Notes under the pieces: model-generated
Database searches by the model: none
What the model was told of the DNA's origin: nothing
The model's input: the letters and a program-made list of their open reading frames with translations, nothing else
Shown here: positions 245 to 57,473 of the stretch, piece after piece
How the letters are laid out: every line of letters starts with the position of its first letter
Numbering within the stretch: the stretch's first letter is position 1
Program-made: the position numbers and the translations under genes
Source: Cliona cf. orientalis
Lineage: Eukaryota; Porifera; Demospongiae; Clionaida; Clionaidae
Assembly: GCA_963930775.1 (NCBI GenBank)
Contig: OZ005689.1
Span: forward strand, 8,506,854 to 8,570,853
Length of the DNA stretch: 64,000 nucleotides
Reading direction: 5' to 3'

Positions 245-3200
245 TGCTACCTTAACTGCTCCATCAGAGAAGGTGATATACTCTGGTATGTGGGTGGCAT
301 CTATGTTCCAGGCTTACCACTTGAATATGACGTATCATTCACAACTGAAAGATCATGCAATGGCCAATGCATTACGTCTACACTTCAGATACGAGCAACA
401 GAGCAGACAAATAGCTTACTGATTCAGTGTGCAGTGGTCACTGGTACAGGCTTGAATCGGACCTATTTTCCACCTACTACACGCCTACTCGTTCAAGGTA
501 TGATAATACTAAGCCTGCATATATATGGAGGCTAATAATAATATTATAATTCATGAAAGTAGCCAGGAAGGGTGATGGACCTTCACCTTTTTATTGTATC
601 GATTATTCCACTCTTTATCATAAACTAAAATAACCTTTACTCAATGTGAAATTCAAACAGTTGTATTAAAACTCTAGTCTTAATCCAGGGTGTAAATATT
701 CTATTATAGATGTGAATGTATCAAAAAAAAGGAAACTTAAAGCACAGTTTCAAATTTGAGAAAATCAACAGTTATTAAATTTTTAAAAGACCATTTCTGT
801 TTATTACCTTAATATTCAACTTTCATGCTTTCTACAAATTAATTGTTGTAAGTATACTTTTATCAGATCGAGTAGCTATTACCACAAACACAGAGTAAAT
901 CCACTACACAGAGTACATTGCATGCTATGGTACATATTATAATAATGTTTCAAGCTACATACTACATACCACAGGGGAGGTGAAGGGGGGGGGGGTTCCA
1001 TAGCTTTGTCCCAATTTTGTAACAAACCACCATTTAACCATAATTTTGTCGACCTCTAGGTCCACCAGTACCACCACCTAGTTTACAAGTCACCATCATA
1101 CCTACTGACACCCAGCTAGTCATTGACCTCATATGGGAAGAACCTGTTTCTCTGATCAACAACAGCATCACCAACTACACGGTGAGAGTAAACGTTTCAC
1201 TTGCCCTTGAGACCTCTGAGGAATTGTTCTTGGACTATGAGAATACTACGACTGAAACATCATTGTTGTATAACATTAGCCAAAATGGGATTCATCCCTG
1301 TAGCATTTCTGTTGTGACTGTGGATGTATTGGCGCAAAATAAAGTAGGAATTGGGGAAGCAGCAAGTAGCACAATAATACCAAACATTGATTTGGAATTG
1401 TGCACCTCAAGCTCTGTGGTTGCAGCTCCTACTGTAACAATAACTGTCGTACCACCAATATACCCTGGATTGAAAGTACTTTCAACAGCCAATAAAAATA
1501 GGATGCTCATTTATGGTAGGTTAATGATTATTATTATCGAGATGCACAAATTTTCACCTATGTTTAGTTGTGCCAGGAAATGAAATCAGATCATGCATGC
1601 AGTGGTATCCCTTAGTCGTGTATGACATAATTGTATATTAGTGACAAGGAGTATAGTTGTCTCTAATTATCTGATCTCTCAACATCGATTACCGGCACGT
1701 CAATCCCGGGCACATTAGAGAATGTGTACATTGATCCTGATTGATTGTACAATGCATGTGTGACTGTATCAATCAGCTAGCTAGAGAAATTTATTAGCAT
1801 GCGCAGTTCTGTAGCTTTGCTAGCAAGGGCTCTTAAAACAATTGTCACTTAAATTGAATAGTCTAAGAATTGTGCGTGCCCTCTGAAAATCATCAGTGGA
1901 CAACATTAATTCCAGAATGTCACTCTTTTGCCATTACAATATTATGTGAAGTAGCTATACTACAATAATAAATTATGGTAGTTGTATTGGTGAGATAATA
2001 AAATTATGATAATTACCTAGCTGTATGTAAGTTTCCATACGCACACTAAAATTGCAATTATTGTAATATTGATGATAAACTAGGGATTAGACCTTCTATC
2101 TTTCGGATGAAAAAAGCCTACACAACAGATTACTAATACATACTTCATAGTACTTATGTGAAGATTTATTATTTGTCTACTCTGTTTAATTTCTTTACAA
2201 ATTTACCCAATCATAAATCTATACATTATGATACACAATTCTATATTATACGAACACAACAGTTCCTGTATGTTATAGACTTGATGGGTTTCCCATCATC
2301 TGATAATTTAAATGCACTGTGAAAATACCCTGCTATTGTATAATTAATAGTCTGCATGTCTACGATCAATATAATAATATTATTATAAGGTTAATTGACA
2401 TACATATACAAGACTTAGGTTATTCTCAACTGACCATGAGACATAATTATGATTAACTCCAATACAAAAACTAATACTTTTGTGTATGTGAATATAGATA
2501 GCCAGCCATTTTACTCATAATAATTATGCAAACAATAATAATTTATTATTTAATTTTAATTCATTAATAAAGATTATTGGCCACTTAAACTTTTTATGGC
2601 CTTTTTTCACATAATCCATAGTGTTACTATAACAATTCGTCATAAAATTATGTTCAGGTGGTGTTGGAGGAGTAATGGTAGTCTTATTGCTATTAATGAC
2701 CGCTGCTATGATCATCATTTCAACCCATTTGATACTGAGGAGAAGAAAAAAGGGAGGAGGTAATAAATATTATACCTTATCAATAATGCAATACATCCTT
2801 GAAACAAAACATATGCACCATAGAGTGTGAACACTTATTAGTACACAGCCGAGCTTATACACATTAATTAGAGGGGCTAGAACCAATAATATTTCACCAA
2901 TTCAGACTACTGAATCAGTGTTTCCTCCCCCACCCCTCCCCATTAATCCTGATCATTACTGTGATAGATAATTATATAACACTTACTGCAAAGTGTAGGT
3001 GGAGGGATTACTGCAATCATATGGCCATGCATTTGTCTCTGTCCATCCCTCCACACAGGCAAGGGTAGCACAAGTGGTTGTCTGAGAGAAAGTGCACATT
3101 GGATGCACTAGCTGCCACGGTTTCCTAGAGTTTGTGTTGGCATAGCTACTACTTGTAGCTAAAGTCCACATCCCCTACAAACATATGAACCTGATGATTG

Positions 3201-6200
3201 TAAATATCACTCTACCAGCAAGTACAATACATGAGTAACAGTGCATATTCAGGTGGGATATGACACAAACACCAGCTGCAGCATATGAACTAATTGTGGT
3301 CATGTTAAATCCTGCCCAGTGGTTTAGCAGTGTAGCTGTGCGTCAGCAGCTGTTACCTGTCTGTATACCTTACACCAACCTCAGGTACATGATTGATATT
3401 GCCATTCCCTGCTGGTGGTACATGTAAACTGGTGTTACTGTAACAGAGGCTTAAGTATTATAGTGACACTGCCAGGCGACTTTATCTATTATTATAGTAC
3501 TCGGAGTCCTAGATTTCAGATCTGCAGAGCACAGTACTATATCCTACTACTGGAATGATGTTGCAGCATTTGTGCTGTAATAGTAGCTTAATACTCCCAT
3601 CTACCAAATTTAGTGAATTTAGCAATTTCCCTAATCTTCGAATATAGAAATAATTTTCAACATTTTTGAATAATTAGTATGTTATAATTTTGAAAGCTCG
3701 CTAAAATGAGTACCTTCTAAACACACTATTTCCAAAATTTGCTAAACCTTTCACCCGCAAATAATTATAGCTCTGTAATGATACCAATTGAACAGTGAGA
3801 TGGAAGAATATAGTCACATTCTTCATAATAATTTTCATGATCTATAATATTATAGCTATAGTTACAGCTAAAATTAATGATATCTGAAATTATGCAGTGG
3901 TAGAGATTCTGCCATCTGTAATACTTGTAGAAGAACAGAAGGGTGCAATTTTATTATATAGTAGTACAGAAACCCATACCCAGTATACTAGAATAATAAT
4001 AATAATCTTCTGTAAGTTAGAAAGCAATGTTTATCAAACAGTAGTCCAAGCCCCCCCACGTTCCCCCCCCCCCCCCCCCCCCCCCCCCCAAAAATTTCAA
4101 GCTTTTAATATATAGGCCATCTGCCATTGAGGGCCAGGTAAAGTTTATATAGCTATTTCCTTGTCTTGTTATAGTTCTTCCTATAGAGCTTGTGGTCTAC
4201 ATAATATTATTAGGTACATCCAGATTGAAAGTAGGAAACCATCATATTATAACTATGAATAGTTAGGATCCAAACATGCTGTCATCACTGTTACAGTAGT
4301 TATGGCAAGGTGCTGCACTACAAGCTGTGAATTTTTATGTTTATGTTTGCAAAGAATGATCATGAGGTGCCAGTACCCCACCTCCAACCCAGCAAGCTGT
4401 CATATATGAGTGTGCGTGCTGAGGCTACATGTAGCTGACTTGCCAAATCTATAAGCCAACAGAGACATGGGGGGCTGCATGCATTTAAGATTTCAGGCTT
4501 TTGGGAGGGTGGGGGAGCAAATGGTATTTCCAGTGGATTGGGAGGAGACAAACTCATAATATTATGTCAAAACCCATACTATATATAAATAGGCATATTA
4601 CATCAAAAATTTAGATTATTTTCTTTTCCACACATAATAATAAAGGAGGCTTCAAGATACAATTTAGTCTTTGTTCCGTAAAATTTCATTGAGTGGTTGC
4701 GGAGATATGGCTGTTTTAATATTTCTAAACATCACAATTTTTCTGCCAAGCATGTGTGCACTATTCCAATACTATTAGGAGCATGGCACGTAATATGTTG
4801 ATTGGTTTAGAGGCCTATAACTCAAAAAGTACACTACTGATTGACTCCAAACTTGAAATATAGCATGTAAGTACCTCTCTGCTTATTCTACTGATGAATT
4901 TAATGAATAAAAAAAATTTGGTGTGCATACCTGTTTGGCTGCTACTGTAGCTAACGTTAATAACACTTCACTGCCTCAGAATTCCAGAAGCTGACTTTAT
5001 GCATGATTTTTTGAAATTATTAGTTTAGACGTCCACTCAAGCACATACATAAGTTCTCATAGTGGTACACACACATGTTCACACGTGTACATGCTCATAT
5101 GCACATATTAATATTGTTTTCTGAAGTGGAATCTATTCTTAAAGTGTAAGACGAGCCCCAAGTTCTTTAGAAGCAATAAAGAGTTTAAAGTGCGTGCACT
5201 TTCTGTGTACCATATTTTTGACAGAAATAGTCTAGCTATAGGGATAGTTCGAGCCAAAAATTTCATTTTTCATAATTATTTCCAATGCATTTTCTCATAT
5301 GTATACATGTTATTTTACACAAAGTAAAATGCTTATTGAGCTCTTTTCAACCGAACACTACAAAAATGGTTAAAACTACTAAAAAAATTTGAAATTAGCA
5401 CCTTGAGTTACCCCTAGAAGCATAAAATGCCCTGGAGAAGTGAGCAACATGGAGCAAGTTGAAGTTATCCATTAGCAATATTTGTGTGCCACAGTAGTTG
5501 AGTATGTGGTATTTATGGAGTTTCCCTGAAGCTCTGCAATGCCGGAAGTGGTTATAACCCAACACTTCGGATACTGCAGTGTAGTGCTATCTTTACTGAA
5601 GCCTGTGGTACAAATTTGGTGTTTGTAGCACACTGTAGTGAGTAGTTATGATCCCTGAAACCTCATAATATTTATATGTGTGCAGGTTTTTATAGGCAAT
5701 TTTTTGGGATTCTGACATGCCTACTATAAATCTCAGGAGGGTGGTGGGAAGGGACACTACCACTCAATGTTTGACCTAAGGCCATCTTAGGCAATTCTGT
5801 GGGTAGCATACCCTTTCCATGCTTCGGACCAAGAGTTGAGGTCCATGACCCTCTGCTGCGCTTGATGAGATTAGTAACACATGTACAGCATATATTGTCA
5901 TCTCCATCAATTGTGGTGCCTTCTCCTGACAGCAGTGTCTGTGACATATGAGATTGATATATAGGGACTCGGTTGTCATGATCAGGCCTATAGTGATGCT
6001 GTCATGAGGATATATACTCCTACATTAATTAATTCTTCCTAGGGGTAATGGATGCATGATGATGGTGAGGTGTGTACTCTTGTTATTATCAGTGCTGGGT
6101 AGACTTTAGAGGCAACCCATGATCTCTACTGGGAGACCTAGTTGTATGGCGCCTCATGCAATTGCAGAGATGGAGTCTGAGACCGATTCCAACCTTGAAA

Positions 6201-8402: not shown

Positions 8403-8408
8403 TATTAC

Positions 8409-11730: not shown

Positions 11731-14700
11731 TCATACAAAACTACAAGCAATAATCAAAATTAGTGGTGGCATAGTCGTGTCAGTAGCATTGTAAACTGTC
11801 TCAGTAGTTTGGCTATTGTTTTGTTGGTTAGAAGTGTAATCAATACCTACAATTGGTGACCAGGAGCGCATGATAAATAATGAAGAGGAGGAGGGGAAGG
11901 GAAGGAGCACGAAGCGCCCACGCGAAAGATTAAAATTTCAAATTTTTCCCACGATAGTCGCGTTACTAAATTTAGAACAATGGCACATGGCGCTAACCGG
12001 CCAGATGCTAGATGAGTCAGCAATTTTTGCGATGGACAATGGACGAGAAGCTAGTAGCTGTGGGCAAGACTGGCTTCATAATCGCAATCTATTAGTACTG
12101 TACAGGTACCAAAGGAGTTGATCCATGCCAAAAGAAAGTGAGTACGTATAATTAATAGACAGAGAGTACGTACTCGTCGAGTCCGATCATGTGTTTGGAG
12201 AGGGGATGCTAAATCAGAACGATCTGGGCATACTGTTACCTCTTTCGGTTTGCAGATGAGCTCAACAGAGTCTCTCAGGCATCTAAAACAGTAACCAGCT
12301 TCTCGTGTCCTTAGACTCGTCTAGCATCTGGCCGGTTAGCGCCATTGTTCTAAACTTAGTAATGCGACTACCGTGGGAAAAATTTGAAATTTTAATCTTT
12401 CGCGTGGGCGTTTCACGCTCCTTCCCTTCCCCTCCTCCTCTTCATTATTTATCATGCGCTTCTATGGTGACTCAATACATAGAATGATATGCACTGAGTT
12501 GCATACTCTTCCAGCTAAATTAAATTATTAGAGGGCTAATGTACTCTCAGCACATCAAGGGTTTAGCCCAGTAACTTAATATATTATACAGGCACTAAAA
12601 AGAAAGAGCTTCTGTAATATTATTAATTCCTCAAACAATGTCATGTATGGTATTACCATTTAAAGCAAGTTTTTTCAATGAATCTGGCTGGTAAGAATCA
12701 CTTACAGCAAGAATGCATATAATTTGGGAGCCAGAAAATAAGACTATTAGGTTACGGGTGACAGTTCACAGATGCACGGGCATTTACCATGATAGTGAGT
12801 AATGGAGACGAGACAAATCACAAAATTAATGAAAATGGTGCATCAAATTTCTCCTATAGATGGCTTCTCTTTTGACCGTAAGGAAGTTTTTATCTTATTA
12901 CTCAGACATCTGGACTGTCACAGTGCTGGAGTTGGCGTATATTTGAAGGGCTCCTGTCAGGAAGCAGATAGATAGCTGCGTTGACAACCTGGTCCGCCAT
13001 TACGCTCGGCGTAAATGACCTTTTGTGTAGCTTGCCCTCTGTGGAGTCCGAGACTCTTTAACTTGGAAACTAATTCCAGCATTGAAGAAGTTAAGTATTT
13101 AGTAAATACTAAGCAACAGAAAGTACACTAGAAGCCTTTATTTTGTCTAGGTAAAACTTGACAAAAGAGATCGTGGCAATAGCAGTCATAGCCTAACTTC
13201 TGCAACAGAAAGGTCACTTCAATGTTGTAATGCTACCTTTGTCATCATGTTAGCTTCATTTTCATTTTTGTTCAGCTTCACAGCTGTCTCCTTTGTGGAG
13301 ATACAGATAGCTTGTTACTCACGATAATTTCTAGATGCAAACTGTCATCCGTAACCTTAGTAGCTATGGCAATATGCATAATATTATTATCTTACCAATG
13401 AACCAGTTCTGAATATGAGCAGCACCATTAGAGTTCGACAATACTGAATGATGACCATTCATATCATTGATATCTTGAGTAACTGCATAAAAATAGATTA
13501 AATTTTATATATCATCAAAATTTTAATTGGAAACACTATGGTCAATGTCAGAGTTCAAGTCTCCATGTCTCCTGCAGCTGGTTCTTTCTATCTTACATGC
13601 ATTGAATTTGCAGCTTGCTGCTGACTAGCCACACTCAAACCCACAGTGTTGTTCACTTTACAGGTGGCCAAGATAGTTTTGTAGATAATATTATGTGAAA
13701 AATATTATTGTGTGTCACATCAAAAGGTATGCTGAGGTGGTGCATGATAATAATTACCCTGCGTGCATGCGCAAGGTGTAATGTAATCGGTTTTGTCTGT
13801 CGTTGTTGTCTGTCTTTAGCACAAAAATTGCCTGATCTGGAGATCTAGGCATCTGAGTGACTCGTAAATATAACGTATCCGTCAATATCGCTGAAAAACT
13901 TGCTTCAGTATGCTTCAAATCGTTTGGCAAGATCCACAAGCGTCGCAAATACTGCGCTTTGTTGGTCATGCCTATGGACTCTGCCCACTATGTGCTCTCT
14001 GCTGCATGTGCACAACCTGGCACAATACGTAGGTAAAGGTCGTCAACAGGCAGCTCGCATCATCGAGCTATCTGACCTCAGATATGCTCTGACATCGACA
14101 CTGCAGTGCGCGTGGGGTATGTGCTCTATAGAGCTCTAGTTATGGCCTATCATTGGTAATTAGCTATTATAGCTATGTATAATAATATAGCTACCAGCAA
14201 ATTTAATCGTAAAATTAAGTATATATAGCTACTCATGTCCTAGGAGTTAAGTTTAAATTGACCCTGGCCAAATTAAAGGTGTGGTTACCAATTTTTTTGT
14301 ACTTGTAGCTATGTACTGAACCATTAAATTTTCACTTAGCTATAATAGTACCATGGTAGGGATTAATTAGCGGTAATTCCCTAGCCTCCCCCTGTTCAGT
14401 GACACATTACGTCATTAGTATAATACTGCAGAGAAGGGTAGCTAGCTACATGCATGTAGCTACTGATTAATATTAGTCCTTGTCAATGATTAGTTTCTTA
14501 CCAACTAGTCTTGCTTCTGCATTTTTTGGCTGGTGATTTCCACGCACAGAACACACAATCCGTGAATTATTTACACTTTCTTTGGCAATAAATTCTAAGG
14601 TAGAATTAATCAGAGATCCATCACTCTTAGTCTTAAATGATACATTCAATTCTGGAGGGAGCCCAAGAGCAAAAGTATCGTTCACAAGCCACAAGATGTC

Positions 14701-15008
14701 TCGAGCTCCTTCGTACACCGAACAATTGAACTTTACGGTGTCGTTTTCTGGACAACGTACGTCCTGAGGCGTTGATTTAAAGATTTCTACAACACCTGTA
14801 CCTATAATATATAACGTGAATACAAATAGCGGTGATATAATTAGAACAGCCGATACTCTACGATACTATTATTGTGTTGTGAATTCGGCATGTTATTAGC
14901 CGGTAGATGTCGATTTGAAATCTCACCTTCATCTTGTGCTCTACAAAGTAGTAGTAAAGTACTCTGCCATGCCACCATCAACGTCAAACCCAAAGCAGCC
15001 CGCCGCAT
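11731..15008 (-). CDS. GPI-anchored-type single-Ig surface protein
   Basis: Exons in transcript order: 15008-14927 (ATG, signal peptide), 14801-14502 (Ig), 13482-13396 (linker), 11846-11731 (C-terminus, TGA). All introns are phase 1 with clear donors (GTGAGA, GTAAGA, GTAAGA); the joined frame is 194 residues. The N-terminus (MRRAALGLT... LLLLCRAQ) is a good signal peptide. The Ig exon has VKFNCS, a DILW core, several N-glycosylation sequons and a second Cys (RIVCSV). It resembles the Ig exon of the first receptor gene. The last exon is Asn/Thr-rich and ends in a short hydrophobic stretch (PPLILIIACSFV) with no basic tail, which fits a GPI signal. Intron 2 holds a MITE and intron 3 a foldback element ending about 15 bases before the last acceptor. 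Role inferred: surface recognition or adhesion partner. Confidence 0.75.
11864..12462. mobile_element. Foldback element with long inverted arms
   Basis: Two arms of about 170 bp face each other. The left begins AGCGCATGATAAATAATG at about 11864. The right ends with the complement at about 12462. Both arms continue through a GA-rich block, 'cccacgcgaaag' and 'gcgctaaccggccagatgc' (left-strand reading) with few mismatches. The central spacer of about 235 bp is unrelated. It lies in intron 3 of the minus-strand Ig/GPI gene. I see no transposase frame. Confidence 0.85.
12470..13395. other. Intron sequence, nothing recognised
   Basis: This is the rest of intron 3 of the minus-strand Ig/GPI gene. 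I searched the minus strand for an alternative phase-1 membrane exon and found only acceptors leading straight into stops. Confidence 0.45.
13753..14141. mobile_element. MITE, ACCCCGCGTGC family (copy a)
   Basis: Begins ATTACCCTGCGTGCATGCGCAA and ends in GTGGGGTATGTGCTCTATAGAGCTCTAGTT. The terminus ACCCYGCG pairs with CGCGTGGGGT near the right end. Diagnostic interior words are 'tcgttgttgtctgtc', 'gcacaaaaatt' and 'gaaaaact...ttcag'. Related copies: 25703-26098, 26745-27465, 16690-17110 and, on the other strand, about 17118-17345. It lies in intron 2 of the minus-strand Ig/GPI gene. Confidence 0.75.
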
Positions 15009-33296: not shown

Positions 33297-36200
33297 ATGA
33301 GGCTCTTCACAGTTCTCCTGGTGGCTGCACCTTTCCTGGCTGTATGCACTGGTCAAGCAGGTAAATAGCTGTTACAATTATTATAGCTACCTCTGATAGC
33401 TAGTTCACAGTCACCTTTTTCTGAAATCATTCTACACAGCTGTTATCCTTGAACATCCCAAGACACAGCATATTTTGGTTGGCAACACAGCCACCTTTCA
33501 CTGCAAGACACTTGGACAGGATGCATTCTGGTCGATCGACGAAAGGACAATATCAGAAACACATCTTGATATCAAGAGGGAATATGAATCACTAGGTTTC
33601 ACTTTCATTGACTCCACTCATGGAACATGGGGCTACCACAACTTGACAATAAACGCGAGAGCATCAGAGAGATTAAACAATACTAAAATTGAGTGCACAA
33701 TTGTGGATCGTAACTTCTTTCAGATCGGTAGCAACATTGCTTACTTGTATGTCTTCACTGACCTCCGTAAGTATTAATTTAATTTTCTAACATGCTGTAA
33801 CTATAGGTTGTAATTGATTGCAGCCTTGTCTCCAGTCCCTCCCAACCTTTCAGTATACGTTAGGTTGCAATTGAATGCGGGGAATTGTCCAAAAAGCAAA
33901 AAAAAAACATACATTGCTCTCTACCAAGTTTCCAAAAATTTTAATTTTCTACAGCTTATAAAAAACATCAAACACTAAACATTAATTTTGTGAGTTAGCC
34001 ACAGGCTTGCTCAAGCATCTCTGCACCTATCAACCTTTTAACGTTTTGTGAGCCCTTCATAGTTAATTATTGAGCAATAAATAGAAGAACACATAGTTGC
34101 TCTAAGGCTATACTATAGATGTACTGTTAATTGCTATAATAGACCTCCCACTGATCAATCAGTACAAACATAGATTCCTTCTATATATATTATGCTGTAG
34201 TTCAATCTAGTTTTCATTAGCCAGTCAATGATTATTATTATCTTATCTCAACATTTCAACACCTCTTCAGGTGTCTTCAACACATACCCCACCCCACCTC
34301 CGCCCCCCCCCCCCCCCCCCCCCCCCAAGCCCAAACTGATAGTAGTATTATCAGGAACAAGCATAATGTACGTAAGATCCCAAGATCAATCAATACAAAG
34401 TTTCTACATGTTGTATTATTGGGAACAAGCACGAAGCAAAATTAATGTGGCTGTTACTTAAGCACTTGAGGATATTAAACAAATGTCTCTCTAGGGCCAT
34501 ACCCCCAAGCCCAAACTGATGGCAGCACTTAGTCTACAAATAGTGTTATCAAGAACAAGCATGTAATGTGGTTATTACATAATAATATTATGCAAAATAA
34601 ACACTCTAGGTCCATACCCCCCACAACTGATAGAAGCTGCAGTGATATGTGGGGATCTGTTACCACCACAACTTCATGGCTCAGTACAAGTGCAACCCAG
34701 ATGGACAGGTTATGACATCGCAGAGTTACGAATAAATATTACCGACGGTAGCAATGGAGAGGTCTTGAAACAAGCTACTATTCCATACAGAAACAGTGAC
34801 CAAAACTTCTTCAATATAACTCTTCCTGGATGTGTAGTATCACTGAATATTAATTCCTCCATCTTGATTAGTGCTACGGCTTTCAGTAGTGGATAGAGGT
34901 AAGCCTGGTTTTAATTGTAATGCAATATGCATAGAATCTTTGCCTTGAGATTAACTCATAGATTTATGTAACGTTGCAGACCCAGGAAACTTTTCTGAAC
35001 AAGCAATTATTAATCACACAGTGTTCTATTACCCGAATGTTACCCCATTTCTCTATCTGGTACTCAAGGTATATGGATTCTAAAACAATCATTCACAATG
35101 TTAATATTGGTGTCATTTCAGTTACCAAGCACTCTTTGTTCATGTCAGAAAGTTGCGTATACGATCGAAATTGAGGATATTAATACTGGACAGGTTGAGA
35201 TACAGGGTCCATTCTATCATAATACCATGGAACACAAACTTCACATAACACAAGATATTGTCAGTGCAATATTTCAAAGAGATAACAACTATACAATGAC
35301 AGTAATAATGGAATCATTAAATTTTGGAGAAATCTCAACTTCAAACAGATATTTCTTCGGTAAGAGTTGTTGTTTTTTGTTGTTTTGTAGATGCTATTCA
35401 CCTTGTATTCAATGCCTTTTCTTGAGAAGCTTTCTTGTGATCTTATCAGCCGATAATCTAGCTGTGAGTCAACAAAGTGTGCGGCTTGAAGGAGTTGGGA
35501 ATATTTATTTTTGAGAGTGCGTGATAAGTTATGAGTCGGTTGGTGTTTTTGTTTTGTACTGGGGAATCTTGAAATTATTTAAGTTCAGTATTGCGTGGGC
35601 TCTTGTAAGTAGCATCCCTTGCAAGCCACAACTATGTTCTTGTGGTGGTGTAGTGATTTACCAAAATTTAATATTAAAGGGAGTCACCTTTCTTGTATAG
35701 CATACAGTTGTGCAACCACTCTTAGACTAGCTCTCTACATGTACCACCACACTTTTCACCCTGTTTTAGTCCCCATAAGCTAAGGCATGGGCACAATAGT
35801 TCCCATGCAGGATCAATCATCTGTAGGTGGTGAAATACACTGATACACGCATTATAGGATTAAATGGTATTGATATAATGTTGTCACAGATACAATCCTG
35901 AGACTTCCCCCAGGTATCCCTAGGCCTCAACCTTGCAACTCTAATACTAGTGAGTAATACTTGGTGTACTTATGTTACTATGAGCACCTACGTTTACAGT
36001 AACATTGTGCATTGTCATTAGCCCTTGACATCATCTATTTTGTAGGAGATGATAATATGACATTCTACTTTCAGTTGGGAATAGGCACTAGTCTGTTGAT
36101 AGCAGTGGTGGTCATGGCAGTACTGGTCATTATTGTGGTTACTATGTACATGAACCACAAACGAGGTATTTCTAAATCACTTGTACTCCTATGTTTCTGT

Positions 36201-36580
36201 TTTGGTAAGACTAACAGCATGGTACTAGCTAATCGTATACCACTTAGAATTGCCCCCCCCCCCTCCCCCTCTGAATTAGCTGTCAGATGATTTTTTTTGT
36301 CCAATCAGAACAAACCTTCATATATTTGGCTGCAAGGAGGGTGCGCAATACCAATCCAGTTTATGACATGCCAGTGTATGAGAGTATCCGGCCTGCAGCA
36401 TCTCTCAATGCACCCACTACTGACTCACAGCACGGCAGTATGGGAATGACTCATGCCAAAAGTGGGTGTGTCCAACGTTGTCAACTACGTGAGACTGATT
36501 TGAGTGATTCTCTGGTGTTTCATGAAAATGTAGTCCAGCCAGCAGCATGGAAGTATTTACATGACAACCAATGGAAATGA
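33297..36580 (+). CDS. Ig-FN3-FN3-TM receptor with NPxY tail
   Basis: Seven exons: 33297-33360 (signal, MRLFTVLLVAAPFLAVCTG), 33440-33766 (Ig), 34610-34885 (FN3), 34980-35068 plus 35122-35359 (second FN3, split by a phase-0 intron), 36046-36165 (membrane), 36309-36580 (tail, TGA). They join to 461 residues. The Ig exon has ATFHCK ... AFWSI ... IECTI. FN3 strands show YDIAELRINI and VAYTIEIEDINTG. The membrane segment is about residues 342-366, followed by NHKR. The tail has N387-P-V-Y390-D-M-P-V-Y395-E-S-I, a PTB/endocytosis-type NPxY followed five residues later by a second tyrosine. The same motif occurs in the receptor at 52199. The first FN3 exon also has a stronger-looking donor at 34899, but use of it puts TAG (34894) in frame; the donor at 34886 keeps frame and FN3 length. 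Confidence 0.85.
33832..34600. other. Large intron with C24 run
   Basis: Most of the intron between the Ig exon and the first FN3 exon of this receptor. It contains 24 C at 34303-34326. The phrase 'cccaagcccaaactgat' occurs twice, at 34323 and 34502, so part of the intron is a decayed direct duplication. No extra exon seen. Confidence 0.55.
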
Positions 36581-45464: not shown

Positions 45465-47662
45465 TTACACAATCAATGAAAATCTTCTATGAATCTGCTT
45501 TATCATCAGTAGAGCAATAAGAAGCAGTAAGATAAAGATCACCACAGTCAAGCATAGTCCCATCGACAGTTCATAATAGAAAACCTCAGCATCTACATAG
45601 TAACATAAATGCTTTAATTATCACAATGATTAATTAATTACCTGAAGTTGGCACATGATCGGTACAATCAGTAAACACATTTTGCTGTTGAAACCTGGTA
45701 CCTGCATACAAATAAAAACAATAATTGAACTAGCTAACTGTGGTGAAACTCTAGACTATCTAGATATACCATGATTCAGAATACATTTACACCATTACTG
45801 TAACAGTAACAGTAAATGTACGTATAGTCCATCAGATGTACCTGAGTGGTAGTTACTACATAGCCAGTCCCCATAATCATCTGTAATGTGTTTTTAATAA
45901 TTATATCCTATGTGCTTCCCCAAATTACTTTATATCAACATCATTTGGACAATTCACATGATTGTCTTTTTTTTGAGTTCTTGATTGTGTTGATTATTAA
46001 ATTTTGTGAAAGTACATCATAATCATTGTTGCTGCTTACTGAAAGGCACTCCATGAGATTCAATCATCTGAGATTCTATCCAAACCTTCACTGTCACTGA
46101 GTATTCCTTGTCTCGCTCCAATCCCAATGTAATAGCATGACTGACAATCCCAGGACCAAGGTGAAGGTATGGTCCATTTATGGAATCATTGCTTTCGTCC
46201 ACTGTCTCATTGATAGCACTAGTACTTATTGAGTAATTCACCACTTGATGTTCACAGATAAACAAGGGCAACTATAATTAATTTTGTACACACATAATTT
46301 GTACGGTCATGTTAAGCAAATATTATTATGATGTCCATTTGCATCTTACATTAATGTTGATGTCCAGTATTGGGGTTACTTTGTTTGTGAACAGGACTGT
46401 TGTATTTATGTCAGCCACAGGGACAGCAACTTGTTGATCAGGTACACCACAAGCTAATTAATGTAATGTGAAGAATAAACATTATTGTTCACACCTTAGA
46501 TACAACAATAATAATCGTTTTGTTACGAGATCTAATTACGTTAAGTCTTGCATGAGGTGCATAGTCAAATACTCTTAGACTAGCACACGATTATTATTTT
46601 TATGGACTATGACTCAACTGCTTCAACATAATAATATTATTATTTTTAGCCTACTCTATAATATTATTATGATCACCCAAGATTCTTTATGCTGTGATAG
46701 TATTTGTAATAAAATCACTCACGTGAATGATATCTTCCTATAACACTGAATGGTGGTAACTCTACTTGATCTGGCCCTGCTGTGAAGATAGTGAACAAGA
46801 ACTCGGTACATGTGCACAAGTCGTGTGAGTATACATCCAGGTCAACCATCATTGATACTATGATGTCATCAAATGAGGCATTCACAGTAGTACGATGAAT
46901 AACCCTGTCTTCCTTTTGGTTTCTTACTATGATGCTAAAGTGTTCAATATGGTATCCAGGCCAGAGGAAGGGAGATGACCATTCCAGTAGGAATATTGTT
47001 GAATTTGGAGATATCATCTTAACTGAAGGGTTCAGTGCAAGAGGGGTTTCTGTAATGATATTATTCGTGAGTATGAGAAAATAATCAATTCAAAACTTAG
47101 AATAAAAGGAACCACTGCATGAATTCAGGTCACTAAATCTGAAAGATCGTGCTGCACCTAGCTACTAGTAATAGATACCTGAAGATATAATCAATATAGC
47201 CCGGTCACTTCTTCTGGGAAGGTTAATCCCATCTTGCACGATACAGTAAAATTCAGTACTATTAATACTGACTGAAGCAGTTATTGCCAGCTTGCTGTAG
47301 AATACATTGGTCGTAGTGTTATGGTGATCTTGAAAGATGAAGCCCTGGTCTTCATGTTGGTCTTGTTGATGATCGTGTGCAGTTGACGAGCCATTGATAA
47401 ACCAATAAAGTGAGCATGTCTGAGGACAGTGACGCACTTTGCACTCAAACACAGCTGTAGTTCCAATTGGAACTAGAAGAGATGAGGGATTTGTTTCAAT
47501 TTCAGGCACTACAGGAGTACATAAGATAGCTATGAATGATCCAATTTTTCTGCAACAATCTACTATTATCAATAATAAATTTTTGTTACCATGAATCCGA
47601 TTTGCATAGGTGCCCGCAGCACAAAGTACAACTGTTACAGTAAAAATCGGTATACACTTCAT
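45465..47662 (-). CDS. Ig-FN3-FN3-TM receptor, short tail (module 1)
   Basis: Seven exons in transcript order: 47662-47590 (signal, KCIPIFTVTVVLCAAGTYA), 47508-47179 (Ig), 47049-46723 (FN3), 46453-46350 plus 46271-46040 (second FN3, split by a phase-0 intron), 45701-45642 (linker), 45592-45465 (membrane and stop). They join to 417 residues. The Ig exon has FECKVRHC ... LYWFING ... FYCIV and extra Cys. FN3 exons show FLLEWSSP and VNYSIST. The membrane segment (LCLTVVIFILLLLIALLMI) is followed by only KQIHRRFSLIV and TAA, so no signalling motif is present. It is a close paralogue of the receptor at 52199 (about 83% identical in the Ig exon by eye), except that linker, membrane and tail exons differ completely. 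It faces the GPI gene at 47921. Confidence 0.85.
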
Positions 47663-47920: not shown

Positions 47921-48623
47921 ATGGTTCTGCAGGTGAAGAAATATTGGAAGGTGACTTCTGTGACTTCAGCACTATTCCTGCTACTTTCTTCTCACGGTAA
48001 GAACTTAGCTATAGCTAGCTACTTAGTCTTGTCACAGTAGCTATGAGGACTAATATTGGCCAGATCCTGATAGCTGCAAGGAAATAAAATTATAATCAAT
48101 TAAGTATTGCTTCTTTGCTACAGGATATTATTCTACAAATGATCCCTTTGTAGTTCATCCAACAAATCAAACAGCTCCGTTTGGGGAATCAGTCATCTTC
48201 GAATGTGTGATCTCAAGCTGTGACCACACTCTGACATTCCTTGCCAATGGCCAAAGTCTGGAGCACTTATCGGCAATGAATGTCTCTGACATTTACTACA
48301 GAGAAAGGGTAATATGCAATGAGCTTGATCAGCAAGTGGCAATGCTATCTGTCATCATTAATTATAAAACACTAGAAGAAGTGGAGTATGTCAACTGCAA
48401 TTTGACACTGTTTGAAGATGGAGATTTTCATGTTATTTCTAGTGATAAAGCTTACATTGACGATAATATTACATATCCTTGCCAATTGCCAACTGAGAAT
48501 GTAACTGATGATTTAGTAGTCTCTGAGTACTCCATTGATAATCCCTCATCAAACATAGGACACAGAGGGAAGCTATCAATATTAACTATGATAGCTTCCA
48601 TTCTATTATTAATTTCCTTATGA
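47921..48623 (+). CDS. GPI-anchored-type single-Ig protein (module 1)
   Basis: Two exons: 47921-47996 (ATG, signal peptide with VTSALFLLLSS) and 48124-48623, phase 1, 191 residues. The mature protein begins with PTNQTAPFGE, then an Ig-like domain (IFECVISSCDHTL ... YVNCNL) with four or more Cys and several N-glycosylation sites. The C-terminus is a hydrophobic run (LSILTMIASILLLISL) ending at the stop without basic residues, preceded by small residues: a GPI attachment signal. There is no cytoplasmic part. Paralogue of the gene at 56812 (about 60% identical). Transcribed away from the receptor at 47662, so the pair may be co-expressed. Confidence 0.83.
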
Positions 48624-49437
48624 ATAATGATTGTTTGAACTTTACTTTTGACATGTATGGTGTTGTAGTAATATATCGATGTGTGCAATTTTTATCGAGA
48701 AACTCACCTTACTTTTGGGTGAGGGATTGGTGCAAATAAGGGTCAACACCACATTCATGTATTGTGGTAGCATTGTTTCGAGGGACTTTCCCTGGGAAAA
48801 CCCATAATTTAATGTTGCAAAATTCATAGCAGATACTATAATACTATTGTGAAAAAGTTGTATAATAATATAATATATTCATACCTCTGATATTCCAGTG
48901 CGGAGGTGTACATATTATGTATGTAATTCATGTTAATTTCTTTTGCAAAAATTTAATAATAATGTTAATAATACTTTGATAATAATATACATACAAATCT
49001 TGTATTATAATACTAATTACAAGTATTACAAGTGAAATAGGAACCTCAATTTGAAATATCATTCTGAGTTGAAACACCTAGCTATCTGACTTTGTGTATA
49101 TGCTATTAGCCTATGATAGTGAGGTTAACATTGCATGTATGTTGAATTTGGATAAAAATTAGTTAGCCATGATGCACTGAAAGTTTGAGCTCAAGGACAA
49201 TAAAATATGTCATGAAGTGTGCTATTGGGTAAATTTCGACAAGGGCTACTTATTTATCTCAAGTTAGAATCCCTGCTGGCATGTGATGTTGCTACTACGT
49301 ACTAAGATTATCCTTACTCATTGTGACCTTTCAACTCAAGCTTAAGGCTTCCATTGCACACCCAATTCAAGGCGTACTCATTATAGTCACATATAGGGTT
49401 AAGTTATAGGGTTAAGTTTTTTCATTAAAATTTAATG
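48624..49437. other. Intergenic, no gene seen
   Basis: 3' flank of the GPI gene. AT-rich, no exon supported. Confidence 0.5.
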
Positions 49438-49900
49438 TTAATACAGCACATAAAGAGAACCTATAAGTGATAACAGGAGTACATTACTAGGAGTGTGCAA
49501 CCCACATAGTAGTAGTACAATCATCTCTTTAATTCCAGATATGACATCACAGAATAGCATTATTAATATGCAACCACTAAAACCATGAAGCCATGAAGGT
49601 TGTGTCTGCACTGTCCTATCAGTAACTAGCTGCAGCTGCATCTATATACAGAATATAACTCAGTGGTTGCAACTTAAGTACCTTCTAATAATATTCAGGC
49701 CCACGTACAAGGGTGGTTGTGATGTCACATCTGGAAAGAGATGTTTGTACTACTATTGTGTGCATTGCACACTCCTGGTGATAACTATAATATGATCACT
49801 TTCATTCTGTTATTAATTAAGTATCAATGATTTTTTGAACCTGACTACCTATGGAGATGACTACAATATTAAATTTTAGTGTAAAGTTTGCAATACCCAT
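49438..49900 (+). pseudogene. Relic of a third GPI-type Ig gene (3' end)
   Basis: Segments 49440-49474 (AATACAGCACATAAAGAGAA...) and 49778-49900 (GTGATAACTATAATATGATC..., then TTTTTTGAAC, GAGATGACTA and GTAAAGTTTGCAA) align in order with the end of the coding exon and 3' UTR of the gene at 56812 (57385-57570). They are separated by an inserted MITE. The upstream Ig part is not recognisable, so this is a dead fragment. Confidence 0.65.
49489..49776. mobile_element. MITE with AGGAGTGTGCAA termini, inside the relic
   Basis: Left AGGAGTGTGCAACCCACATA and right complement (TGTGTGCATTGCACACTCCT) form inverted repeats of about 60 bp that extend through GTACTACTA and ATGTCACATC words. The sequence GTGATAAC flanks the insertion on both sides (49467-49474 and 49778-49785), consistent with an 8-bp target duplication. 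The exact left boundary is uncertain by about 14 bases. Confidence 0.65.
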
Positions 49901-50009
49901 AACACACCTGTAAATATTTAACATGAAGTTGTATGAACTGTATAATTATAACAGAATGAAATCTCCACTATATTATTATAATACTGTTGACCTGTGAATA
50001 TAAAAGAAT

Positions 50010-50030
50010 GGGGGGGGGGGGGGGGGGGGG
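50010..50030. repeat. G21 homopolymer
   Basis: A run of 21 G lies between the GPI-gene relic and the FN3 relic. Confidence 0.95.
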
Positions 50031-50700: not shown

Positions 50701-50760
50701 GAATTCCAAGAAAAGATATTACATAGGATAAATTTCCTTAGTGAAACCTGGATAAACTAA

Positions 50761-52198: not shown

Positions 52199-54916
52199 TT
52201 ACTCCTTGTACTTATCTGTATCCTCTGGGCTAAGCTCACATCCATCCGTGCCAACCAGTGCACGACGACCAGCTGCAGGACTCAATATTGCATAATTGTC
52301 ATCCATATCCCTTAGCACTACTGGATTCACAGCTGATATTATTTTAGAGGTACAATTCTGAGCACTGTGATCATGAGCTTCAGTGGCGACAGCTGAGTCA
52401 GTGCCGGTAAGTGTGAGGGTCAGGTGCAGCTTGTTTCGCTGCTTGGGAATCTTTTTGATGACAGGTACTGAGACACTGGTACACCTTGGAATATTTTCGG
52501 TATCACCTTCTGCTGCAGAAGGATGAGATAAAAACGACTTACTTCTAATTTTGGATGCCTGGTGAGCTGATGATGGTGGATCAACATAACGAATGGACTT
52601 TTCTGAGCTTGTTGGAGTACTGGGCTGGCTGTTACAGGCGGATGTGTTTGATGTGCTTGTACTTTGCTTCGTGAGAGTTTCAAACTGAGTTTGAACTGAT
52701 TCATAGACTGGTCCATCATATATTGGATTGTGCACCATGGCATTGCAAACTCTACTTGTTGAATCGTTGACCTTCAGTTCTGTTATTGTTTAAAAGGGTA
52801 TACAATATCATACAATACTTTGCTAGTGAATATAGTTACTATGCATAACTCACTTTTCACTTTTCTCTTATTGTGAATGTAGAGGCACACAACTACACCA
52901 ACAAAGGACAAACATGCTACAATAATAACAGCCAAGCAGGCTCCAATTGCAATCTTATAGTGAAGGATATCTGTAAGGGGAGAATTATCATCATGACCAT
53001 ACAGAGATACTCAGAAGGACATTAATACCTTCATCTTCTTTTAGAGACTTTGAGCATACTAAGGTGGGCGATTTAACTAGAAGATGTGTATCTGTTGACA
53101 CGACAGTGTGCATTATCATGAATTAGGCATATCAAAATTAATGTTGACTATGATAATATTATGCATGTGGTATCTATCTAAATTAGCATCAAACAAAGGT
53201 TGGTACAATTTGTACCGGTGTACTATGAACTTTAATTGTATTTACCCCTTCCCATTAATCTTATCATAATATTATAATATAATATTATATTCCCACTGAA
53301 ATCCATAAAGGTTCAACTAAAAACACTTTCATCTGAAGTTGGTACATGAGCAGTGCATTTTATAATTGAAGCCTAGTACTTGCATACAAATAATTTCATA
53401 ATAATTGTGATTGAATCAACGGTTCTTTGTTTTTTGAGTATATTATACATGTGTTAATTTATGAAACTACCTTCATAATCCCAATCTTATTAAGTTATTG
53501 TTGCTGCTTACTGAAAGGCACTCGGTGAGATTCAATCATCTGAGATTCTATCCAAACTCTTACTGTCACTGAATATTTCTTATCTCGCTCCAATCCCGAT
53601 GTAATAGCATGACTGACAACCCCAGGACCAAGGTGAAGGTATGGCCCATTTATGGAATCATTGCTTTTTTTGTCCACGGTCTCATCGATAGCACTAGTAC
53701 TAATTGAGTAATTCACCATTTGATGTTCACAGATAAGCAAGGGCAACTATATGTATAAGATAATAATTATCACAGTCATGTTAAACATAATATTATGAAG
53801 TCCCATTTTATCTTACATTAATGTTGATCTCCAGTATTGGAGTTACTTTATTTGTGAACAGGACTGTTGTATTTATGTCAGTCACATGAACAGCAAGTTG
53901 TTGATCAGGTGTAACACAAGCTAATTATTATTATGTGAAGAATAATTAAAAATAATCGTTATTATTAATAATATTGTTTTGTACTGTGATAGTATTAATT
54001 TTATAATGGCACATAAAATCACTCACGTGAAAGATATCTTCTTATAACACTGAATGGTGGTAACTCTATTTGATCTGGCTCTACTGTAAACAAAAACTCA
54101 GTACATGTAGACAGGTCGTGCGAGTACGCATCCAGTTCAATAATCAAGGATACTATTATGTCATCAAATGAGGCATTCACAGTAGTGTGATGAACAACTC
54201 TGTCATTTTTTTGATTCGTAACAATGACATTAAAATATTCAATATGGTATCCAGGCCAAAGGAAGGGAGGTGACCATTCCAGTAGGAATATTGTTGAATT
54301 GCAAGACATTGTCTTAACTGAAGGGTTTGGTGCTAGAGGGGTCTCTGTAATAATAAAATTTGTTTAAACCGTGAGTGTGAGGAAATAAATGCAGAACTTG
54401 ATCTTAGACTAATAATAATGTACCACTGCATGCATCCAGGCACCAAATAGATACCTGAAGCTACGATCAATATAGCCCGATCACTTATTCTGATCCCATC
54501 TTGCACGATACAGTAAAGTTCAGTGTTATTGACACTGACTGAAGCAGTTATTGCCAGCTTGCTGTAAAATACACTGGTGGTAGTGTTGTGCTGATTTTCA
54601 AAGATGAAGCCCTGATCTTCATGCCGGTCTTGTTGATGATCATGTGCAGTTGACAAACCATTGATAGTCCAATAAACAGAGCATGTCCGAGGGCAGTGAC
54701 GCACTTTGCACTCAAACACAGCTGTAGTTCCAACTGGAACTAGAAGAGATGATGGATGTGTTTCAATTTCAGGCACTGCAGAATTAGTTGAGAATGATTC
54801 AAACTTGCACTTACTCCCGCTACAGTATTAAATTAATAGTCTTACAATGTATTACCATGATTCTGATTTGCACGGGCAGCACAAACTACAAGAGTGAAAA
54901 TTGATATGCACTGCAT
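52199..54916 (-). CDS. Ig-FN3-FN3-TM receptor with long tyrosine-motif tail (module 2)
   Basis: Eight exons in transcript order: 54916-54856 (signal), 54775-54455 (Ig), 54344-54027 (FN3), 53920-53817 plus 53746-53512 (second FN3, phase-0 split), 53091-53029 (linker), 52970-52854 (membrane), 52779-52199 (tail, TAA). They join to 599 residues. Start chosen to match the paralogue at 47662; an in-frame ATG pair upstream would add about 11 residues before the signal peptide. The membrane segment (residues about 372-396) is followed by HNKRKVK. The 193-residue tail has N424-P-I-Y427-D-G-P-V-Y432-E-S-V, matching the receptor at 33297, then a Ser/Thr-rich part, a basic stretch and a DNYAIL motif near the end. 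The ectodomain parallels the receptor at 45465 but the 3' exons are unrelated. A broken copy of the other paralogue's linker exon remains at about 53336-53382. Role inferred: surface recognition with intracellular signalling. Confidence 0.87.
53336..53382 (-). pseudogene. Decayed linker exon inside an intron
   Basis: The minus strand reads GTACTAGGCTTCAATTATAA ... CCAACTTCAG. This aligns with the working linker exon of the sister receptor (45701-45642) but has an in-frame TAA and has lost the GT donor. It shows that module 2 once used the same exon and replaced it. Confidence 0.7.
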
Positions 54917-55111: not shown

Positions 55112-55377
55112 ATCTCGTTATGTACAGAGATCCTACGAGAACTTAGAAAAATTTCGACAAGTGTAAAACAAAAAGAAAGAAAGCATAAAGCGAGATTTGA
55201 ACCCGCTACATTCTGTTCCATACACAAAATTAAAAGCCCCAACCACTACACCACCGCTGTTGTCGCTGCTACCAATCATTATTAATTTTTCCCCCTTTCA
55301 TAGACATACCCTAGAGACTAACCCTGCTAACCCATCCCCAACCCCCCCCAGCCACTCCCATCCATACCGCGTATAAT
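55112..55377 (-). mobile_element. TIR element with tRNA-like block (left part of a split copy)
   Basis: Closely matches 22265-22505: ATCTCGTTATGTACAG at the start, the minus-strand tRNA-like block with B box GGGTTCAAATCTCGC (one change), and the CCCAACCCCCC tract. The remainder of the element appears at about 56640-56730, so a later insertion at 55378 split it. Confidence 0.65.
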
Positions 55378-55998
55378 TACATCCTAAGTGGGAAGAAAAT
55401 CTAATGTAATGTAATGTAATATAATGTAAGTAAACTCAGCCCCAGAACATGCTACGAAGATAATTCAAAGACCAGCAGATAGAGCATAAAAAAATTTTTT
55501 AAAAAAATTACACGTTCCAGAATTTTCAATTTCACTTTCATTGTCGAGTTATATTAAAGCGAAAATGTCCTTGTCAAAACACAAAAGCCACAACTATACT
55601 ACAGTTCAGATGGTCTAATGGTTAAGCTCTGAGTCTGCCAGGCAGTGTGAAATGCGAGCCCCGGTTCGAATCCCGTTAGTGCCGATTTTTTTTTTTCCAA
55701 CTCTTTTTAACAGCCAATGATGCCGGGAAAGGTTGTCTTACATGTATATTGGATAATAAAGATTAAATACTAGTATGTATACTGATGCATCATCATCAAT
55801 ACACAGTTTAGGCCAATGACAATAATATATATTTACCATAGCTAAACACTAGAGTGAAACAAAGTTAGGTAAAGATCGTCATTGGCTGCTTCATGCTCTA
55901 GATAACATCTAAACTTGTTAAATTCAGTTTATTCCTCCTAATGCAGATGTTTTTCTTGCTGAATGAACACACTTTTTCCCACTTAGGATGCGGTCAGT
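55378..55998. mobile_element. TIR element CATCCTAAGTGGG containing a tRNA-like sequence
   Basis: Left CATCCTAAGTGGGAAGAAAA and right TTTTTCCCACTTAGGATG are inverted; about 620 bp. Inside at about 55609-55690 (+) is a second tRNA-like block: A-box-like GGTCTAATGGTTAAG, perfect B box GGTTCGAATCC, then T11, a good Pol III terminator. The acceptor stem does not pair, so I call it tRNA-derived (SINE-like), not a tRNA gene. Confidence 0.6.
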
Positions 55999-55999
55999 C

Positions 56000-56635
56000 T
56001 TCTTATAATAATAATAATAATAATAATAATAATTAATAATTTCGGTGAACACACCATTTCATAAGGTGTACAAGAAATAGTAGTAACGTTATAAGACTAT
56101 ATTATTAATTTTAAGAAAGTATAAAGAATAGAAATTACAGTAATTAATCACAGCAGATAGTGTAGATCATGGGCTCCACATCCATGTCACTTGGACTGAG
56201 TAGATTTAAGTCTTAAAAATCTTACAAAGTCAGCACATATGACATCTTCTTGAAAGTATGTTTTCTGATACTTCTGCCCAACGTAATGATTATGACCAAC
56301 AGGAGTAATTGTGCAGGTGAGAAAACGAGAAAAAGTAGCTACTACTAAGCAAAGCAGACTTAGACTGGCAGATCTTAATTGAAAAACGATTAGACCAACT
56401 TACAAGTCTATTAAAAACACTATCAAGATGTGCAACTTTATGGAGTATACGGGAGTGGCAATTTCTGGGTAACTTCCATATATAGAATGTTATTAAAGGC
56501 AACTTCTAAGGATTTGATTTGGTTACAAGTATTAAATATCCCAAAGAACGCCACCATACAACGACAGACAATGGGAGCTGAAAAGGACTGTCTTGACATG
56601 AGGATCACAAGCAGAGAAAGTACTCAAGGCACGTT
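56000..56635. other. Insertion-derived sequence, no gene
   Basis: Lies between the CATCCTAAG element and the right fragment of the split element. It begins with an (AAT)n stretch. No exon supported. Confidence 0.4.
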
Positions 56636-56639
56636 AATT

Positions 56640-56811
56640 AATACATTATACGCGCACGCGCGCGTGATTGCGTCATAACCACGCGCCGATAATCTAATTA
56701 GGATCTCGGTACATAACGATTTCGACTGCGAATAGGTATATATAAATAGGGCGAGGCTCAAGCGCAACCATCGAATTTGATTGATTACAACTTCATTGGT
56801 ACTGAGAGCTG
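56640..56811 (+). promoter_or_regulatory. Promoter of module 2 GPI gene next to a transposon end
   Basis: 56640-56730 is the right end of the split TIR element (shared with 22520-22612: GATTGCGTCATAACCACGCG, ACATAACGATTTCGA). Directly after it comes TATATAAATAGG (56738-56750), a good TATA box about 65 bases before the ATG at 56812. The transposon end thus sits in the core-promoter region. Confidence 0.6.
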
Positions 56812-57473
56812 ATGGTTCTGCAGATGGAGAACTATTGTTTTAAGATTTTTGTGACTTCAATACTGTGCTTGGTCCTTTCTCCTCGCGGTAAGAAAAATGC
56901 TACTCAGTATGAGGATAGCTATACTAGTCTAGCTACAAAAGAAATATAATAATTAAGTATTAGTTGTTTGCTACAGGATGTTGTTCTACACATAATTCCT
57001 TCGTAGTTCAGCCGACAAATCAAACAGCTCCGTTTGGGGAACATGTCACCTTCACGTGTGCTGTCTCAAGCTGTAATCACACTCTAAGAATCCATGCCAA
57101 TGGCGAACGTCCACAGTACTTAAATGTCTCTGAATTTTACTACAGTGAAAGTGTAATCTGTAATCAGATGGGTCAGTATGTGGCAATGTTATCAATCACT
57201 GTGAATTACAAAACATTGAAAGAAGTGAAGTATGTCAACTGCAAGTTGGTCCGATTTGCAAATGGAGTCTCACATTCCATTCTAAGTGATAAAGCTTATA
57301 TTGTCAATGTGACATTTCCTGGCCAATCTCAACCAACTAATTATCATATTTCAAGCACTGAATACTTTGTTACTAATTTTTCATTGAATACAGCACACAA
57401 AGAGAACCTATCAGTGATAACTATGATCACTTCTATTCTGTCATTAATTATTATCAAGACAATATTTGTTTGA
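56812..57473 (+). CDS. GPI-anchored-type single-Ig protein (module 2)
   Basis: Two exons: 56812-56887 (ATG, signal peptide with IFVTSILCLVLS) and 56977-57473, phase 1, 190 residues. Starts MVLQ like its paralogue at 47921. The mature protein shares PTNQTAPFGE, SSCNHTL, VAMLS, NYKTL.EV.YVNC and SDKAYI with it, while intervening loops differ strongly. N-glycosylation sites are numerous. The C-terminal hydrophobic segment (LSVITMITSILSLIIIKTIFV) fits a GPI signal, with a single Lys that makes a short membrane anchor a minor alternative. It lies head-to-head with the receptor at 54916, now 1.9 kb apart because of transposon insertions. Confidence 0.82.

Follow-up and report, generated by a model that had tools for sequence, protein, structure and literature searches.

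A chromosome 1-linked family of immunoglobulin-type receptors with GPI-type partners in the sponge Cliona cf. orientalis: a candidate cell-recognition complex

Here, we describe a linked set of apparently signalling immunoglobulin (Ig) recognition receptors with GPI-type partners on chromosome 1 (C1) of the sponge Cliona cf. orientalis, which we read, with a probability of roughly 0.55, as a candidate cell-recognition complex because a C1-linked receptor family occurs together with small, head-to-head GPI-type partners. The predicted architectures, family membership, linkage and divergent pairing are all drawn from the DNA sequence. To our knowledge, no genes behind sponge self/non-self recognition have been mapped, and the roughly 43 Ig receptor loci linked on C1, together with divergent GPI-type partners, provide recognition studies with a concrete interval and gene list; the receptor/GPI-partner pairing and a tail signature are new leads even if the role proves to be adhesion or immunity. 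The window, meaning the whole 64,000-nucleotide stretch analysed, is C1:8506854-8570853 in a genome of 216.8 Mb in 149 contigs, where C1 measures 37,495,003 bp and C7 9,989,510 bp. The published assembly, odCliOrie1.1, comprises 217.17 Mb, 19 chromosomes and 307 scaffolds, with chromosome 1 the longest scaffold (37.5 Mb) and chromosome 7 at 9.99 Mb (PMC12639293).

An Ig domain is well supported in seven window genes (R1, R2, R3, GPI1, GPI2, A and B), which partly confirms a first-pass annotation of the window as a cluster of at least eight Ig-type genes. That count was too high, as genes proposed at 18161-24232 (possibly GPI-type) and 28517-30885 (a tailed Ig receptor) found no support: three scanned exons gave no meaningful Pfam match, those at 18.6k and 22.8k had no other match within the window at E<=0.1, and the 30.2-30.7k exon matched itself alone in a genome search and nothing meaningful in a PDB search. 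An Ig identity for these exons was set aside. Features are listed by window position.

245..1388, plus strand: gene A, Ig exon about 245-535, FN3-like exon 1053-1388
about 7531-7758, plus strand: proposed tail exon of gene A, an open frame with tyrosines
14502..15008, minus strand: gene B, signal-like exon 15008-14927, Ig exon 14801-14502
31781-32752, plus strand: 323-aa cysteine-rich frame with a signal-like N-terminus and no meaningful Pfam match; looks like a secreted protein
33440..36580, plus strand: receptor R3, recognised by family matches on C1, Ig likeness to R2 and tail similarity; Ig 33440-33774, FN3-like frame 34567-34896, second FN3-like frame 35149-35359, transmembrane segment (TM) 36046-36165, tail 36309-36580 with NPVYDMPVYESI
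37690-38838, plus strand: one-frame GPCR whose relatives carry PF00001, used as a conservation yardstick for R1
42693-44594, minus strand: 633-aa frame of a multi-pass transporter between receptor genes, which we take to resemble P protein/ArsB-type carriers
45468..47662, minus strand: receptor R1, signal-like N-terminus (ATG 47662), Ig 47508-47179, FN3-1 47049-46723, FN3-2 split over two exons (about 46442-46344 and 46271-46038), TM and 11-residue basic stub tail 45617-45468
47921..48623, plus strand: GPI1, signal-like exon (ATG 47921), single Ig, hydrophobic C-terminus reaching the stop
49419..49475, plus strand: decayed C-terminal fragment of GPI1/GPI2 type with an internal stop (tblastn 68% over 19 aa, E 0.003)
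52199..54916, minus strand: receptor R2, signal-like N-terminus (ATG 54916), Ig 54775-54455, FN3-1 54344-54027, split FN3-2 (about 53912-53814 and 53746-53510), TM 52970-52854, long tail 52779-52199 with HNPIYDGPVYESV and YAIL
55373..56627, no strand assigned: dispersed repeats of two kinds between R2 and GPI2, extending the divergent intergenic stretch
56812..57473, plus strand: GPI2, signal-like exon (ATG 56812), single Ig, hydrophobic C-terminus

By domain order and sequence matches, R1-R3 are assigned to one Ig-FN3-FN3-TM family. The R1 and R2 Ig domains score slightly over the Pfam Ig_3 cut-off of 30 bits (30.3 and 30.9 bits), and AF2 models of the R2 Ig (pLDDT 92.3) and GPI2 Ig (pLDDT 91.7) match Ig folds, as expected of Ig superfamily members. 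Exon by exon, fn3 stays under its Pfam cut-off (best among 14 family members, 3.7e-5), and a profile of 14 FN3-1 exons matches titin at 1.4e-9. R1 and R2 are tandem copies with three ectodomain blocks at 84-88% nucleotide identity; their DNA aligns at 33-51% in the TM window and the windows beside it, and their TM peptides match weakly (26%, E 4e-4; hydropathy of the R1 TM, 3.71). The R3 Ig is weak when taken alone (Pfam I-set, E 0.07) and matches the R2 Ig (7e-7 within the window, 0.005 genome-wide) as well as chromosome 1 relatives (6e-17). The FN3-like frames of R3 give no Pfam match on their own, and its domain order is that of R2. Splice signals, from which the R1 exon joins are predicted, agree with the phase-1 borders previously claimed for these genes: in both R1 and R2, phase-1 joins would suit the Ig exon and the FN3-1 exon, and in gene B the Ig exon has both donor and acceptor in phase 1.

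The stub-tailed receptor annotated at 45465-47662 is R1. Membrane segments with tyrosine-motif tails, claimed for several genes, hold for R2 (52199-54916) and R3 (33297-36580), both of which carry NPxYDxPVYES. The R2 tail is about 192 aa long, and its 196-aa exon has no Pfam match, so that the kinase of Ig-type RTKs was not found there; the R3 tail, at about 90 aa, is too short for a kinase domain. Across 14 aligned family tails, in which invariance arises partly by construction because the tails were chosen by similarity, NPxYDxPVY has four unvarying residues (N, Y, P and Y) and the common form is MV[HQ]NPIYDGPVYES[VI], with YxxM close to the end in six; we presume that roles of these motifs involve PTB, SH2 and PI3K. 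For gene A (245-7758) the frame with tyrosines is present, but inspection of the reading frames identified no TM exon, and the join of this tail to an Ig exon 7 kb upstream is putative.

Genes A and B appear to form a separate small Ig pair, for which a common family with R1-R3 is not shown. Taken alone, the gene A Ig has no Pfam match; it matches the gene B Ig at 1.5e-6 genome-wide and 2.7e-11 within the window, and the FN3-like exon of gene A matches Dscam weakly (E 0.25). The gene B Ig falls just under the C2-set_2 cut-off (20.4 bits; cut-off 21) and matches a titin Ig at 3.7e-4. Apart from A and B, genome searches for this wider family returned a single weak place, at 8.06 Mb (E 0.006). 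The GPI-type end proposed for gene B (11731-15008) comes down to 12 hydrophobic residues near 11731, a putative 3' end. An inverted repeat of about 155 bp (90% identity; 11862-12018 and 12314-12463) lies within this 3' part, so the exons proposed there may be mobile-element sequence.

GPI-type ends fare better at 47921-48623 and 56812-57473. GPI1 and GPI2, 54-55% identical, each combine a signal peptide with a C-terminal hydrophobic segment and little or no tail (by hydropathy and by eye), the segment reaching the stop or ending five residues short of it; both proteins are probably tethered to the membrane by GPI. The same features are weaker in gene B and in a protein encoded at 13.97 Mb. Where several dead relatives had been proposed between the genes, one was found, the decayed fragment at 49419-49475. 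The single-Ig GPI type has six matches in the genome, all on C1. The match at 13.913 Mb was excluded from the count of GPI-type genes, leaving five, each with a hydrophobic segment near the C-terminus (weak at 13.97 Mb). The excluded Ig exon is followed, 0.6 kb downstream and in the same orientation, by a receptor-type tail (L031 8304-9739; C1:13.913-13.915 Mb), an arrangement that suggests exon shuffling between the GPI and receptor gene types.

Four of the five GPI-type genes stand head-to-head (divergent) with a receptor. Start codons are 258 bp apart in the GPI1-R1 pair and 1895 bp apart in the GPI2-R2 pair, about 1.25 kb of the latter being dispersed repeats; the pair at 12.15 Mb is about 1.5 kb apart, and that at 14.01 Mb about 8.6 kb apart, possibly with other genes in between. 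No family exon was found within 11 kb 5' of the gene at 13.97 Mb. Both window pairs stem from one duplication, and the head-to-head arrangement looks old because the 12.15 Mb pair is merely 28% (GPI) and 38% (receptor Ig) identical to them. A search for a second copy of the R2 and GPI2 DNA (a haplotig) found the dispersed repeats alone, the 55373-56627 sequence recurring at 39 other places at 83-92% identity; a hidden second copy is possible, since 40 of 989 candidates were scored.

The complex proves larger than the first-pass annotation had claimed. Four protein searches of the genome (R2 ectodomain, 56 matches; R2 tail, 15; R3 Ig plus FN3, 22; Ig plus FN3 of the 13.85 Mb member, 50) yielded 143 matches, which a 3.5 kb rule joins into 50 loci; these figures count matches, some loci may not be intact genes, and there may be further loci. 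On C1 lie 43 of the 50, all between 8.54 and 17.32 Mb (8.8 Mb; P 5e-26 with C1 taken as 17.3% of the genome), and seven are elsewhere (two on C3 and one each on C5, C7, C9, C10 and C16). Weak rows were kept at C1 11.443 (E 0.07), 15.063 (0.0015), 15.985 (0.007), 16.39 (0.005) and 16.47 and 16.48 Mb (0.009), and at C5 3.006 Mb (E 6e-4, two stops). Removal of the six weak C1 rows leaves 37 of 44 loci on C1 (P 7e-22), and collapsing neighbours within 100 kb, which makes tandem copies count once, leaves 13 of 20 clusters there (P 2.8e-6). Fourteen loci fall within C1 13.6-14.3 Mb, and family exons were present in 17 of 20 fetched stretches, which were picked at or beside matches. As far as the searches show, the window would be the low-coordinate edge of this C1-linked complex. 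Such grouping of many related Ig receptor genes is one element of our working definition of an allorecognition complex; the others are strong allelic polymorphism focused on the ectodomain, diversifying selection among paralogous Ig domains, and genetic linkage to fusion or rejection, with polymorphism and linkage to fusion as the defining ones. A control with generic Ig_3 (PF13927) exons placed 31 of 150 on C1 (p 0.16), eight of them inside the C1 interval against 6.1 expected (150 exons scored of 1805 first-look candidates, the 31 and 8 counted by hand); without a C1 bias in this control, clustering as a general trait of Ig exons was rejected. Other dense Ig_3 exon arrays were seen at C15:7.88-8.14 Mb, C10:6.42-6.53 Mb and C10:9.49-9.51 Mb, where the family searches had no matches. 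C1 is 2.5 times as long as the next-longest chromosome (14.8 Mb), and the linkage of the family may stem from a chromosome fusion or from a separate history of this chromosome. This chromosome-wide family, the head-to-head pairing and the failure of the R1 and R2 tail regions to align go beyond what had been noted before.

Rates of protein change were estimated by NG86 as exon averages, from which single sites under selection could escape. Omega is 0.31 (Ig), 0.23 (FN3-1) and 0.29 (FN3-2b) for R1/R2; 0.33 (Ig), 0.27 (FN3-1), 0.11 (FN3-2b) and 0.30 (tail) for the 13.85/13.88 Mb pair; 0.16 for the 14.250/14.256 Ig; 0.31 for the 13.97/14.01 GPI Ig; and 0.48 (Ig) and 0.80 (C-terminus) for GPI1/GPI2. 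No sign of diversifying selection among paralogues was found, with omega at 0.11-0.48 throughout the nine pairs of Ig or FN3 exons (the five Ig pairs, 0.16-0.48), values that point to purifying selection on the receptor ectodomain exons. The GPI1/GPI2 Ig carries 48 nonsynonymous changes in 250 sites versus 52 in 675 in the R1/R2 exons (p 2e-6), while synonymous sites of the duplicated unit do not differ (p 0.20). Within this duplicated unit, protein sequence thus changes faster in the GPI partner than in the receptor. The 13.85/13.88 Mb Ig exon has a dS of 0.465 versus 0.12-0.17 in the remaining gene (p 2.6e-4); this peak falls on the margin of the similar tract, so that a boundary left by duplication or conversion suffices as an explanation. 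R1/R2 show no Ig-exon divergence peak (p 0.49), and mean column identity across the family (Ig 42%, FN3-1 43%) gives no Ig-specific acceleration.

Relatives also occur beyond this genome. The FN3-1 profile matches 223 proteins in public sources, 120 of them listed, and a tree was made of 131 sequences, 12 of them from the Cliona cf. orientalis genome, leaving out P0021, P0031 and P0004, each the same as a gene of this genome, and sequences covering fewer than 60 kept columns. Six of the 12 members each have a clade of their own that includes between 4 and 11 relatives from outside (local support 0.71-1.0), the 13.889 Mb member falls in a clade with 16 (support 0.87), four have no more than two, and the remaining member has none. 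The pattern suggests lineages that are old and have persisted, rather than an array with fast turnover, though the outside sources could include the same species. Five contigs of more than 200 kb elsewhere presumably carry two family members each (among the 120 matches listed of 223), so family linkage seems present there too. The nearest relatives of the R1 Ig share 92.5%, 85.0% and 81.3% identity with it. For the GPCR 8 kb from R1 the values are 99.7%, presumably to its own copy, and then 86.3% and 80.1%; with unmatched sources, the comparison says merely that R1 is not conspicuously fast. P0008 (97% identical to R1 in FN3-1), perhaps an allele and perhaps a close relative, was not used as evidence of polymorphism. 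The genome analysed represents one haplotype of an individual whose alternate haplotype is GCA_963930685.1 (PMC12639293).

Under the reading as a recognition complex, most members would be type I receptors with a signal peptide, a membrane-distal Ig, two FN3, a TM and a tyrosine-motif tail, the R2 and R3 tails being of signalling type and R1 having the stub only; a second, smaller set would be single-Ig GPI-type proteins, mostly head-to-head with a receptor. The Ig domain may mediate contacts between cells as Kirrel/SYG-type Ig domains do, and the linked GPI protein may serve as ligand or co-receptor, co-expressed via the shared upstream stretch. On contact, the tyrosines of the NPxY and YxxM/YxxV motifs would become phosphorylated and recruit PTB or SH2 adaptors, and the stub-tailed R1 could compete, or adhere without signalling. 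The recognised partner could be self, allogeneic cells, symbionts or ordinary neighbours. The earlier interpretation as a recognition complex is partly supported, and three narrower explanations (allorecognition, immune or symbiont sensing, developmental adhesion) are special cases of it. Ordinary developmental adhesion molecules of Kirrel/SYG-like kind, multiplied on one chromosome by happenstance, would fit the purifying selection, the subfamilies common to other sources and the best fold matches (Kirrel/Neph/SYG-1); in our judgement, about 50 loci, divergent GPI-type partners and an unalignable stub tail exceed the usual basic set, and we regard this explanation as possible but doubtful. 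KIR and LILR are immune receptor clusters with long and stub tails, and large linked families with both tail types are typical of immune clusters, so the Ig heads might instead recognise microbes or algal symbionts, with uptake or defence set off by the tails and linkage reflecting ordinary tandem duplication. Symbiodiniaceae sequences have been found with Cliona cf. orientalis (PMC12639293). The tested Ig exons are nevertheless without sign of diversifying selection and the best structural matches are cell-cell adhesion Ig domains, though Ig folds are promiscuous; we consider immune or symbiont sensing unlikely.

A sponge allorecognition (histocompatibility) complex, in which one or two members have polymorphic Ig domains whose binding to matching alleles decides between fusion and rejection, would account for the layout, which resembles the hydroid complexes compared below, for the faster protein change of the GPI partner and for the raised dS of the 13.85/13.88 Mb Ig exon; sponges do tell self from nonself grafts (PMC5450542). 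Against it, no exon pair has an omega above 1, the R1 Ig is well conserved in relatives and no faster than the adjacent GPCR, subfamilies recur across sources, and the 13.85/13.88 peak is explained by its boundary and has no counterpart in R1/R2. In addition, a word search of the main text of an Amphimedon graft transcriptome paper returned neither immunoglobulin nor fibronectin, which is weak evidence. The self/non-self role offered in the first-pass annotation is thus not borne out by these analyses: allorecognition is a testable special case, at present unsupported, and we think it improbable. More specifically, C1:8.5-17.3 Mb might be a histocompatibility complex of head-to-head receptor/GPI-ligand units, in which a long-tailed receptor reads a co-inherited, faster-evolving GPI label, stubs act as decoys and fusion or rejection follows from unit matching, but this is a long shot. 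A chance neighbourhood of unrelated Ig genes in a compact genome would be consistent with A/B and the R family not being shown as one and with Ig exons being common (1805 first-look candidates) and not generally enriched on C1; it is very improbable given that R1-R3 and their relatives form one family linked on C1, also after 100-kb collapsing, and that the GPI type is found there alone.

Among known systems, Kirrel, Neph, SYG-1 and Roughest have several Ig domains and no known FN3, and their Ig domains are the best fold matches, at 16-24% sequence identity to the R2 Ig. NKR-P1/Clr of the NK complex are C-type lectins in which a receptor gene adjoins its partner's gene and the two are kept together in evolution; the Cliona receptors likewise lie beside a partner gene, whereas the proteins are Ig and the partnership is proposed from position alone. 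Sponge aggregation factors are the usual candidates for sponge self-recognition. Unlike the Cliona Ig/FN3 receptors, these factors (also mentioned in PMC5450542) are an extracellular proteoglycan complex (PMC11999971). Sponge IgSF proteins are linked mainly to adhesion and intercellular recognition in a review (PMC11999971), and the RTK and adhesion molecule of Geodia cydonium tie Ig domains on sponge surface proteins to adhesion (PMC12018476, PMC11999971); the Geodia RTK is a receptor kinase, whereas the R2 tail is without a kinase match. A literature search, with most subscription journals outside its scope, found no published sponge Ig/FN3 receptor complex in the portions of text it covered. 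The likeness to cnidarian Alr loci seen in the first-pass annotation is one of layout, and the absence of Alr among the fold matches listed for the Cliona Ig models carries no weight. Hydractinia has 40 linked Alr/Alr-like genes across chromosome 3, some of them potential pseudogenes, and 3 outside the complex (PMC11876637), with 41 members described as having V-set and I-set domains (cited in PMC11999971), and Podocoryna likewise has 22 Alr-type genes in its complex and eight outside (PMC13119343). The Hydractinia ARC and the Cliona complex thus both have many linked Ig receptor genes on one chromosome and few outside, and differ in that the Cliona ectodomain is Ig-FN3-FN3, with head-to-head GPI-type partners. 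Should complexes of this kind have arisen independently in sponges and hydroids, animals would have turned to Ig recognition clusters repeatedly.
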